Shown in pieces: positions 41,673 to 46,199 of a stretch of 64,000 nucleotides of DNA. Position numbers and translations under genes: made by a program. This DNA comes from an uncultured bacterium (GTDB lineage Bacteria > Edwardsbacteria > AC1 > EtOH8). The stretch is from assembly GCA_937863685.1 (NCBI GenBank), contig CALMGM010000005.1, positions 558,001 to 622,000 on the forward strand. The letters are read 5' to 3'. The notes under the pieces are model-generated. The model was given only the letters and a program-made list of their open reading frames with translations. It did not search any database and was not told the origin of the DNA. Within the stretch, counting starts at the first letter, position 1; each line of letters begins with the position of its first letter.

Positions 41673-42299
41673 TTACTTGGTCTTGAGACCGATCGTTTTT
41701 CTGGCTAATACGCGATTTGTAGCATGTTTGTGAGGGATCCCGCTGGACATACAGTCAAATATTTCTTCTGTTGAATACTCTATCATCCAATCATGGTAAT
41801 ATGTCAAAAGTTCTCCAGAAATCCATTTATGCGAATTCTTCTCGCCTTCAGGAGCGGGTTCAATGAATGGTTTTTTTACAAAAACCGATAACATGTGTAA
41901 GCCATTTTCTTCCGTGTGGTCCTTATAATTTGTAAAAATATCCTCTCTAACTTCCTGAGGAATGTAGTGAAGTGAACCTACGGAAAAGATGATATCAAAT
42001 TTATCAGCCAATCGATATTCATTTATATTGGCTTTAAAAACATTAACATTCACGCCGCTCTTATCCGCTAATTTCTTTGTCTTTTCCACACCAGCATCAG
42101 CCAAGTCGAAAGCAGTCACATCATAACCGTTACGGGCAAAAAACACAGCGTTTCTTCCTTCACCACAACCCAAATCCAAAAGCCTTAAATGTTTGGTAGG
42201 AGGCAATATCTGTAATACTTTATAACATGTTGGCGAAGGGACAAACCCCCAATAATAATCTTCCTGCTCATATATATCATCGTAAATGTTTGACATCAA
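41673..42299 (-). CDS. Class I SAM-dependent methyltransferase (TehB-like) inside the pst operon
   Basis: 208 residues with the SAM-binding loop [20 protein letters not shown] (about 38-57), the acidic end of beta-2 (VTAFDLAD) and [16 protein letters not shown]. It resembles small-molecule methyltransferases such as TehB; the substrate is unknown. It is more AT-rich than the pst genes on both sides and interrupts the pstB2-pstB1 pair (92 bp and 11 bp gaps), which suggests a later insertion. Confidence 0.82.
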
Positions 42300-43160: not shown

Positions 43161-43997
43161 TCAGTTGTTCTTGGCCACGAACCGGTTCATCAGTCCGTAG
43201 GCCGTCAGGTTTATCAGCAGAATGGTGATCACTAAAATGGCCGCGGTGCCGTAGGCGTTCTCGGTGGAGATGCCCTCCCGGGCCAGAATGTAGAAATGGA
43301 CCGACATGGTGCGGACCGAGTCGAACAGCGAGGACGGCATCCGGAGCGACGAGCCGGCGGTGAAGATCACCGCGGCGGTCTCGCCGATGGAGCGCCCCAC
43401 CCCCAGCATCACCCCGGTGACGATGCCAGGCAGGGCGCTGGGCAGCACCACCTTCTGGACGGTCTCCCAGCGGGTGGCCCCCAGCGAGAAGGACACCTCC
43501 CGGTAGGAGTTGGGCACCGATTTGATGGCCTCCTCCGAGGTCCGGATGATGGTGGGCAGGATCATGAAAGCCAGGGTCAGCCCGCCGGACAGGATGGACC
43601 AGCCCATCTGCAGTATGGTGACGAAGAAGATGAATCCGAACAGGCCGAAGATGATGGAGGGGATCCCGGCCAGGCAGTCGGCCCCGAAACGGATGATCCT
43701 GGTGGCCCGGCTCTCCCGGGTGTATTCGGTCAGGTAGATGGCGGTGCCCACCCCCAGCGGTGTGGCGATCAATATGGCCACCAGGGTCAGCAGGATGGTC
43801 CCCACCACCACCGGGAAGATGCCCCCGGCCTTGCCCATGTCCCGGGGAGCGGAGAGCAGGAACTTGAAGCCCACCACCGGCAGGCCCTTCTCCAGCACGA
43901 ACAGGATGATGAACACCAGTATGGCCAGGGTGGCCAGGGTGGCCAGTCCCATCACCAGCTTGGCGGCCGTCTGGGTATATCTGGGAGGTATTCTCAT
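43161..43997 (-). CDS. pstA: Phosphate ABC transporter permease PstA
   Basis: 278 residues. About six membrane helices are visible; the first is at about 15-37 (GLATLATLAILVFIILFVLEKG). The EAA-type coupling loop SYREVSFSLGATRWETVQKVVLPSALPGI is in the expected place. It forms the channel with PstC and is driven by the PstB pair. It overlaps pstC by 4 bp. Confidence 0.94.
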   Translation of the reverse strand: MRIPPRYTQTAAKLVMGLATLATLAILVFIILFVLEKGLPVVGFKFLLSAPRDMGKAGGIFPVVVGTILLTLVAILIATPLGVGTAIYLTEYTRESRATRIIRFGADCLAGIPSIIFGLFGFIFFVTILQMGWSILSGGLTLAFMILPTIIRTSEEAIKSVPNSYREVSFSLGATRWETVQKVVLPSALPGIVTGVMLGVGRSIGETAAVIFTAGSSLRMPSSLFDSVRTMSVHFYILAREGISTENAYGTAAILVITILLINLTAYGLMNRFVAKNN

Positions 43998-44851
43998 CTT
44001 TTGCCCGCCCTCTTCCTGATGGCCATCCCGGCCAGGGAATTCAGGATCATGATGATGATCAGCAGCACCACCCCGGTGGCGAACAGCGCCTGGCGGTGCT
44101 GCCCGGTAGCGTAGCCCATCTCCAGGGCGATGTTGGCGGTCAGGGTTCGGACCGAATCCAGGGCCGATCCGGGGATCTTGACCGCGTTGCCGGCCACCAT
44201 GATCACCGCCATGGTCTCGCCGATGGCCCGCCCCATGCCCAGGATGATGGCGGCGATGATGCCGGATTTGGCGGCCGGAACCGTCACCATATGGGTGGTC
44301 TGCCAGTGGGTGGCGCCCAGGGCCAGCGAACCCTCCCGGTAGGAATTGGGCACCGACTGGATGGAATCTATCGAGATGCTGATGATGGTGGGCAATATCA
44401 TGACGCCCAGGATGATGGCCCCGGCCAGCACCGACAGCCCCGGCCCGCCCAGCTGGGAGCGGATCAGCGGGGCCAGCACCATCACCCCGATGAATCCGTA
44501 AACCACCGAGGGGATCCCGGCCAGCAGTTCGATGGTGGGCTTGATGACCCCCATCACCCGGCGCGGCACGAACTCGGTGAGGTAGACGGCGCAGGCCACT
44601 CCCAGCGGGGCGCCGACCAGCATGGCCCCCAGGGTTACCCAGACCGAGGCCACTATCATGGGCCAGATGCCGAATTTTCCGGCCTGGGGCTGCCAGTCGG
44701 AGGAAAGCAGGAACTTTACCGGGCCGTAGCTGATGATGAACGGCAGACCCTCTTTGATGATAAAAAGGGCTATCAGAAGCAGGGCCGAGATAGCCGAAAA
44801 AGCTATCCCCGCCAATACTCTCCGAACGCCCTTCTCGCCTAAGAATTTCAT
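43994..44851 (-). CDS. pstC: Phosphate ABC transporter permease PstC
   Basis: 285 residues, several membrane helices, and the coupling loop SYREGSLALGATHWQTTHMVTVPAAKSGI. LGMGRAIGETMAVIMVAG, a conserved PstC/PstA stretch, is also present. It leads the pstC-pstA-pstB2 part of the operon. The 553-bp structured region separates it from pstS, so it may have its own leader or be expressed at a lower level than PstS. Confidence 0.94.
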   Translation of the reverse strand: MKFLGEKGVRRVLAGIAFSAISALLLIALFIIKEGLPFIISYGPVKFLLSSDWQPQAGKFGIWPMIVASVWVTLGAMLVGAPLGVACAVYLTEFVPRRVMGVIKPTIELLAGIPSVVYGFIGVMVLAPLIRSQLGGPGLSVLAGAIILGVMILPTIISISIDSIQSVPNSYREGSLALGATHWQTTHMVTVPAAKSGIIAAIILGMGRAIGETMAVIMVAGNAVKIPGSALDSVRTLTANIALEMGYATGQHRQALFATGVVLLIIIMILNSLAGMAIRKRAGKR

Positions 44852-45404
44852 GAAATATTCAGTTTAATGTTTGCCCTCATGTCGATCATTTTTCTTTATT
44901 ACGCAACATGACCCTAGTACTATATTCTTGTTTCTCACCACTAAAACGACCTCTCCGCTTTCTCTTATAACTAAGAGAAAGCTCCAAAGAAAAGTTTTAG
45001 GGGACGGCAAACTAACGTAAACAATAGTAATATGTCTTCAACCCGCTGTTTTGTTATCACTAAGACTGTTACATCAGTAACGCCGACCGTAGCCGTCCCC
45101 TAAGACCCGGCTTAACCTGTATATACTTACAGGTTAAGTTAAGTGGACCAAGCGTCCCAATGGGGTCCGGGGGCACAGTGCGAATAACTGCTGAAAACAA
45201 TACCTAAATGATCAATGCTTCGTAGCGTGTGCTCATTTCTTCAAAAATTATTGATTATATAAGCGGTCCATAAATCGTTAAGCCCTGTGCCCCCGGCGGG
45301 TCTTTCGCCCTTTCTGCCCGGACAGAAAGGGCTGTGCGAGTTATATAAAATTTATCCGCTGGCACGCTTTCCATTATTGAAGAAGAAACAACACCGAGAA
45401 AATA
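44852..45404. other. 553-bp spacer between pstS and pstC, rich in inverted repeats
   Basis: No open frame of note. Holds the structured block at 44957-45332 (see ncRNA entry). Lower coordinates (44870-44950) are plain AT-rich leader text before pstC; 45333-45404 is a plain stretch after the last stem. Confidence 0.8.
44957..45332 (-). ncRNA. Candidate structured RNA: five perfect stems between pstS and pstC
   Basis: Perfect stems in order: 44957-44967/44972-44982 (GCTTTCTCTTA, TAAC loop); 44997-45008/45092-45103 (TTAGGGGACGGC, 83-nt interior with an inner GTTAC/GTAAC stem); 45111-45121/45128-45138 (CTTAACCTGTA); 45167-45178/45285-45296 (CCGGGGGCACAG, 106-nt interior); 45307-45316/45323-45332 (GCCCTTTCTG). 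A smaller GGACC/GGTCC pair spans 45145-45168. No known RNA family was recognised. The strand is assumed from the operon. It could be a leader controlling pstCAB, a stable ncRNA, or a mobile palindromic element. Confidence 0.6.
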
Positions 45405-46199
45405 TTATTTGACCGGGATCAGTCCGCTGCTCTTGATGGTCTCCTGGCCTTCGGGCGAAAGCATGTAGTCGATCACTTGTTTGACCGCACCTTCCGGCGG
45501 TCCCTGGGTCAGCAGGAAAACCGGGCGGACCAGTTTGAACTTTCCGCTGATGATCTGCTCGGTGGTGCACTCGACCCCGTCCAGTTTGACCGGCTTGATC
45601 TTCTCGTTGATCAACCCGTGAGATAGATATCCGACGGCGTTGGCATCGTTGGCCACCGTTTCCCGGATGGTCCCGTTGGAATCCTGGATCAGGGCCTCTT
45701 TCATCAGAGAGATATCGCCCACTATCTGTTCAAAGGAGGTCCTGGTGCCGGATCCGGCCTCGCGGGATACCACCGTGATCGGCCAGTTATCACCACCCAC
45801 CTGTTTCCAGTTGGTAATGACGCCATTGAATATCTCCCTCACCTGCTTGATGGTCAGCCCCTCGATCTTGTTGCCGGGATTGACCACAATGGCGATGCCG
45901 TCCCGGGCCACCTCGGTGGCGGTGAGATCCTTGGCCTCCTCCGGCAGCTGCACCAGGTCGGCCATCCCTATCTGGGCGGTGCCGGCCAGAGCCGACTGGA
46001 TGCCCACCGCCGAGCCACCGCCCTGGACAGTGACGTTGATGCCGGGATTCAGGGTCATGAACTGGTCGGCCAGTTTTTCGGCGAAAGGCTGGAAGGCGGT
46101 GGAACCGGCCATGATGACCGCCTCCCGCTTTGTGCCGCAGCCGGCCAGCATCAGGACCGCCGTTATAAGAGACATGGCTGCAAGATATCTTTTATTCAT
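45405..46199 (-). CDS. pstS: Phosphate-binding lipoprotein PstS
   Basis: 264 residues. The signal peptide has a lipobox (VLMLAGC-GTK). The phosphate-binding fold has the typical AGSTAFQPFAEKLADQF start, GGGSAVGIQSAL and the later REAGSGTRTSFEQI, both ligand loops of the PstS family. It captures phosphate in the periplasm or at the outer face. First in the operon order, followed by the structured spacer then pstC. AAAGGAT lies 5 bp before its ATG. Confidence 0.93.
   Translation of the reverse strand: MNKRYLAAMSLITAVLMLAGCGTKREAVIMAGSTAFQPFAEKLADQFMTLNPGINVTVQGGGSAVGIQSALAGTAQIGMADLVQLPEEAKDLTATEVARDGIAIVVNPGNKIEGLTIKQVREIFNGVITNWKQVGGDNWPITVVSREAGSGTRTSFEQIVGDISLMKEALIQDSNGTIRETVANDANAVGYLSHGLINEKIKPVKLDGVECTTEQIISGKFKLVRPVFLLTQGPPEGAVKQVIDYMLSPEGQETIKSSGLIPVK

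Follow-up and report, generated by a model that had tools for sequence, protein, structure and literature searches.

Between pstS (45405-46199, minus strand) and pstC (43994-44851, minus strand), the 64,000-nt window analysed here, the whole stretch of DNA taken from an uncultured member of the Edwardsbacteria, carries a 553-nt spacer dense in potential secondary structure. The question this raises is whether the structure serves the phosphate operon that contains it or arrived there by other means. A first-pass annotation had described five perfect stems of 10-12 bp, two of them closing loops of 83 and 106 nt, in a gap without an open frame that divides the two genes, and had offered a phosphate-linked leader, a transcript processing signal, an autonomous ncRNA or a palindromic mobile element as readings. 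All five stems lie where it placed them, and the gene coordinates confirm the division. Such stems are expected by chance 0.09 times on average and at most twice (100 dinucleotide shuffles of the 553-nt spacer), and the spacer folds with z-scores against shuffles of -8.1 on the plus strand and -9.5 on the minus strand. An ORF check bears out that no coding frame is plausible here: of the ORFs that overlap the spacer, the longest (72 aa) runs mostly antisense to pstS, and the longest that starts and ends within or near the spacer has 49 aa. We find no promoter or intrinsic terminator above chance in the block. Rfam covariance models score at most 14.6 bits against it and assign no family, just as none had been recognised by eye, and in related loci, including those of a second subfamily, only tRNAs reach Rfam's gathering score. 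Further along the operon, a class I methyltransferase-like gene (window 41673-42299, minus strand) sits between two pstB-like genes.

The block is a dispersed repeat. In its longest copies, similarity begins at 44955 and stops at 45332, close to the edges first proposed for the structured region (44957-45332). The block's own genome (G000) holds eleven matches including the block itself, at unrelated intergenic sites, some of them pieces of one copy; not counting the block, there are at least eight copies, full or partial. Matches number 18, 3 and 7 in three congeners; other genera of the family show similarity at the ends only, and genus g4 gives no match. A strict pattern for the right end, run against 84,980 species genomes, returns only records of Candidatus Edwardsbacteria (UBP2), and plasmid, phage and IMG/VR collections contain no match. 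The copies examined, which come partly from draft assemblies (as most of the genomes are) and lie in some cases at contig ends, are intergenic, occur in both orientations relative to flanking genes, including between co-directional genes, and have no fixed gene neighbour. Close relatives differ in copy number, from 1 to about 9. A 142-nt core is identical in loci L002 and L012, whose flanks are unrelated, an identity that gene conversion could also have produced; the orthologous copies L010 and L012 are just 82% alike. A literature search for Edwardsbacteria repeats or mobile pseudoknot repeats found no match, and we consider this a previously undescribed repeat family in a poorly known phylum.

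The block is made of two related units set head to head as an inverted pair, which we write <A B>, with the hairpin ends facing outward. A unit measures about 170 nt and has a long closing stem and, at its outer end, a hairpin, with a pyrimidine linker between them. Its features, with the five perfect stems numbered from left to right, are as follows.

44955-45332, no strand assigned: whole repeat <A B>, delimited by where its similarity to other copies in the genome starts and stops
44957-44982, minus strand: outer hairpin of unit A; perfect stem 1 (44957-44967/44972-44982, 11 bp, loop of 4 nt), loop TAAC, which is GTTA on the minus strand
44985-44993, minus strand: pyrimidine linker of unit A, a mirror of the hairpin arm
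44994-44996, minus strand: possible 3-bp loop contact of unit A, AAC with GTT of the loop (44969-44971); weak
44997-45103, minus strand: closing stem of unit A and its 83-nt loop; perfect stem 2 (arms 44997-45008/45092-45103, 12 bp)
45111-45138, no strand assigned: central hairpin between the units, its sequence varying and its pairing kept; perfect stem 3 (45111-45121/45128-45138, 11 bp, loop of 6 nt)
45167-45296, plus strand: closing stem of unit B and its 106-nt loop; perfect stem 4 (arms 45167-45178/45285-45296, 12 bp)
45297-45300, plus strand: 5' strand of the pseudoknot, CGGG, covarying with 45317-45320 at all four pairs
45301-45306, plus strand: linker of unit B, TCTTTC, of which TCTTT is invariant and mirrors TTTCT in the hairpin
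45307-45332, plus strand: outer hairpin of unit B; perfect stem 5 (45307-45316/45323-45332, 10 bp, loop of 6 nt), whose loop CCCG (45317-45320) is the 3' strand of the pseudoknot

The description as an inverted pair follows from the order of elements: read on the minus strand, unit A runs from closing stem through a short element and pyrimidine linker to outer hairpin, as unit B does on the plus strand. A second subfamily, recovered with a covariance model of the right end, keeps this architecture, and its closing stems change in a compensatory manner (GGGGGCTTTG/CAAAGCCCCC and GGGGGATTTG/CAAATCCCCC). An inner motif beside the 3' arm of the closing stem, ACGTTAGTT, is also common to this subfamily and to unit A as read on the minus strand. 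Wobbles of the G-U type in the closing stems favour each unit's own strand (minus for A, plus for B) by 13 to 2; the cells are not independent, and we take this bias as supporting evidence only, in agreement with the inverted pair. The terminal sequences differ (GCTTTCTCTTA versus GCCCTTTCTG), so that the two ends are alike in architecture only. In unit A, the pair closing the hairpin loop changes on both sides between A-T and G-C in L007, L025 and L029. The A stem-loop is bounded by TA at 44998-44999 and at 45101-45102, and in L017 and L028 it is precisely missing, with a single TA left behind. Units are also found alone, nested or recombined, a trait known from BOX, BIME and REPIN repeats: unit B occurs alone in L005, L006, L018, L031 and genera g2 and g3, and unit A in L007 and L025, and the solo copies L018 and L031 are kept at orthologous sites. 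An integron attC site, suggested by GTTAAGC/GCTTAAC boxes, was considered and dropped, as these boxes are plain stem sequence.

At the outer end of unit B, the hairpin loop CCCG pairs with the upstream CGGG to give a 4-bp H-type pseudoknot. Each of the four pairs in this helix covaries, over three genera and the second subfamily. The variants include CGCC/GGCG, TGCC/GGCA, CGGC/GCCG, TGCG/CGCG and CGAT/ATCG in relatives, and CGCT/GGCG and CACT/GGTG in the second subfamily. In an alignment of 18 sequences of B and the second subfamily, two-sided changes are seen at 8 of 14 pairs (4/4 in the pseudoknot, 4/10 in the hairpin), and 98.7% of pseudoknot and hairpin cells are paired, where slid controls reach 59% at most. 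None of 500 shuffles, uncorrected for relatedness, reached the covariation score, but the changes are spread over several separate lineages; L015 and L131 each have one broken pair. Compensatory changes maintain the closing stems, the outer hairpin and the 4-bp pseudoknot. Scattered copies and compensatory changes had at first been set against each other as marks of a mobile element and of an RNA; in fact both are found. For the left end, an equal pseudoknot was considered and dropped, the possible contact amounting to 3 bp and one compensatory case (GAC/GTC in L029). Although the secondary structure leaves it unpaired, the TCTTT linker between the pseudoknot strands is invariant; it exactly mirrors the TTTCT of the hairpin, which is likewise invariant. 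Pyrimidine triplexes of this sort occur in telomerase-type pseudoknots, and the mirror arrangement means that a triplex could form here: the linker could occupy the major groove of the hairpin.

Comparison with close relatives shows the same sites with and without the element. The pstS-pstC spacer of two sister species, G002 and G003, measures about 20 bp rather than 553 bp, and in G002 it reads CAT-TGGCTGGATAAAATCAATCT-ATTTGAC. In G001 the element is present at this site, with different modules and extra nested hairpins. PstS identity to G000 is 93% in G002, 89% in G003 and 86% in G001, so that the two species lacking the element are the nearer ones; this patchy pattern argues for insertion combined with loss or exchange rather than simple descent. 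Similar sequence at pst in G000 and G001 extends beyond the block, which would also fit ancestral presence followed by two losses in place of a recent insertion. Other sites behave likewise: that of L003 is empty in G002, where the matching flanks lie 13 bp apart, and that of L017 is empty in G000, G002 and G003. No clean target-site duplication is evident around the copies in g1 and G000, where spacers have diverged. In G005, a B unit (L030:1255-1630) lies within longer inverted repeats, TTTGAGTATCCAATC and GTTTGGATAGTCAAA, which are flanked by the direct repeat TGCGATA, an arrangement suggesting that other vehicles may carry units.

The element is dispersed, modular, and present or absent between sister species. 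We propose, with a probability of roughly 0.7, that Edwardsbacteria carry it as a non-autonomous mobile DNA element, a structured inverted pair moved in trans. Of the readings first offered, the palindromic mobile element is strongly supported, by the scattered copies and by the sister species that lack the block at pst. Under our model, a transposase supplied in trans would recognise the outward-facing 3' ends in folded, single-stranded form, probably as DNA and less probably as RNA. The inverted pair would be the moving form, and solo units would be remnants or one-ended copies. One such element would have landed between pstS and pstC, so that any effect of its hairpins on pst mRNA would be a by-product, and the best reading is that any influence of the block on pst expression is incidental.

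Searches for a mobilising enzyme speak against this model. The Y1 (RAYT) transposase profile PF01797 has no match in G000, the one genome searched, while positive controls matched. TnpB (PF07282) is absent from all B-bearing genomes, its one match being in G009. IS110 transposases are found only in G003 and G007 and not in the block's own genome, and no gene was seen carried inside a full-length relative. A retron or group II type retroelement was rejected as partner because the distribution of reverse transcriptases mismatches that of the units: there is a retron in G000 and otherwise a reverse transcriptase in G003 only, and the unit-bearing G001, G004, G005 and G007 have none, so that even genomes rich in units are without one. 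The retron-type locus of the block's own genome (L107, contig C5, about 292600-293200) encodes a 339-aa reverse transcriptase with a YADD motif, adjoining a 299-aa protein that resembles, by eye, a nucleoside deoxyribosyltransferase.

Other explanations have to account for the same observations. In two species the block stands precisely in the gap separating pstS from pstC, and the pst mRNA could be affected by its hairpins, which suggests a signal acting in cis on the pst operon as a leader or in processing or attenuation; the roughly 20-bp spacers of G002 and G003 largely refute this, copies stand beside unrelated genes in both orientations, and the G001 pst site has different modules, making it very improbable. 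The phosphate-linked leader of the first-pass annotation fails on these grounds together with the opposite strands of the two units, and mixed orientation with no fixed neighbour and no promoter or terminator excludes a phosphate-specific role and a one-strand leader. A stronger case can be made that each unit is a structured ncRNA gene or RNA domain, its pseudoknot having a cellular function and its spread due to recombination rather than transposition. The earlier idea of a structured strand is supported as well, since stems and a pseudoknot covary. The covarying pseudoknot, the invariant TCTTT linker, the own-strand wobble bias, the orthologous retention of L018 and L031 and, in genera g2 and g3, an inner hairpin of the GNRA type (GGCC..GAAA..GGCC, with GGAC/GTCC in L081) speak for a functional RNA. 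Copy number that varies up to about ninefold among close relatives, nested insertions that break several copies, the lack of a fixed neighbour gene or of a promoter above chance, and the missing match in genus g4 all speak against it, and we regard the ncRNA gene as unlikely.

We give about the same low weight to a nested heap of unrelated, ordinary TIR-type MITEs, in which the structures would be terminal inverted repeats only. Here the A stem-loop does act as a TA-flanked insert, as L017 and L028 indicate, and the B unit of G005 lies within longer inverted repeats flanked by a direct repeat. However, a covarying helix between a loop and an upstream strand, with an invariant unpaired linker, is unexpected for plain TIRs, and A on the minus strand and B on the plus strand have one architecture.

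Among known systems, IS200/IS605 elements have ends formed by a terminal hairpin with a nearby 4-nt pairing element, and TnpB guide RNAs contain a pseudoknot. Our element likewise combines a terminal hairpin with a nearby 4-nt element, which pairs with the hairpin loop and not with a cleavage site, and unlike these systems it has neither Y1 nor TnpB detected in its own genome. It resembles MITEs in being non-coding, dispersed, and present or absent between relatives, and differs in lacking identical terminal inverted repeats. In REPINs and BIMEs, inverted REP doublets are mobilised by RAYT, the doublets being the moving form of REPINs and singles remnants (PMC3116915). Like them, our element is non-autonomous, intergenic and an inverted pair of hairpin units, its singles seem more diverged, and a folded single strand is the proposed substrate (PMC3116915). 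It differs from REPs and REPINs in unit size (about 170 nt, against 20-40 nt), in its covarying pseudoknot end and in its low copy number (PMC3116915); its feet have no GTAG tag (a CGTC-like one in L013 is coincidental), and no Y1 transposase is detected in its genome. Without sequence tag, REP size or transposase, it does not qualify as a REP. CGTC-tagged repeats are also dispersed palindromes with no recognisable dedicated transposase (PMC3733652), but are single short stem-loops, and the present ends have no consistent CGTC tag. The BOX elements of Streptococcus pneumoniae share the modular mosaic, strong RNA fold, variable modules and nested repeats (PMC3049150); they are tandem A-B-C arrays rather than an inverted pair with outward pseudoknot ends, and no sequence relation is known. 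We therefore file the element as a structured intergenic repeat outside the REPIN, CGTC-repeat and BOX kinds.

Evolution has kept a pseudoknot, and not a mere hairpin, at the ends of what is probably a miniature mobile element, and its covariation provides a direct handle for finding what recognises such ends. The locus also warns that structured spacers within operons may be insertions and not regulators. Only tentatively do we suggest a new class of mobile structured nucleic acid, of which the unit would be the type member: after a closing stem would come, on the 3' side, an H-type pseudoknot containing a triple helix of the pyrimidine motif, and a mobilising enzyme would recognise the single-stranded form. 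If this is true, matches in another lineage would extend the class beyond one phylum. The right-end model was scanned over 290 genomes, and G058 gave the sole plausible-looking outside match; matches to model R1 in G025, G085, G094 and G187 had no closing stem or loop pairing and were taken as chance. G058 has four weak, mutually similar copies (L116, L127, L134 and L135) of the form AGCGCG-TTTTG-GTGCCTTTTG[CGCAAGAC]CAAAAGGCAC, like the 3' end of B, possibly the same class in another phylum.

Several other repeats accompany the units. A separate high-copy palindromic repeat, ACCTCTCCC..GGTGAGGT, has inserted into the A hairpin in several copies and, in L024 and L034, into the B hairpin. Its form ACCTCTCCC..GGGTGAGGT, at L017:1442-1492 and in many places in G000, G002 and G003 (tens per genome), often sits within other repeats. 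In L016, L022, L023, L027 and L032, the A hairpin begins a third module type, in which an A-like hairpin is followed by CAGCGCTG..GCTGCC..GGCAGC; genus g4, although without B, has this module too. A further repeat with scattered copies, GTTCTTTTTCTTTTTTGT..GAAAAAGAACCAAAAAGAAAAAAGC, lies upstream of position 1501 in L005, where a long structured stretch with TAAATTTGACAAA..GCCAAATTCTTAA follows it, and downstream in L018 and L031, and shows the same hairpin-plus-purine-arm grammar as unit A.
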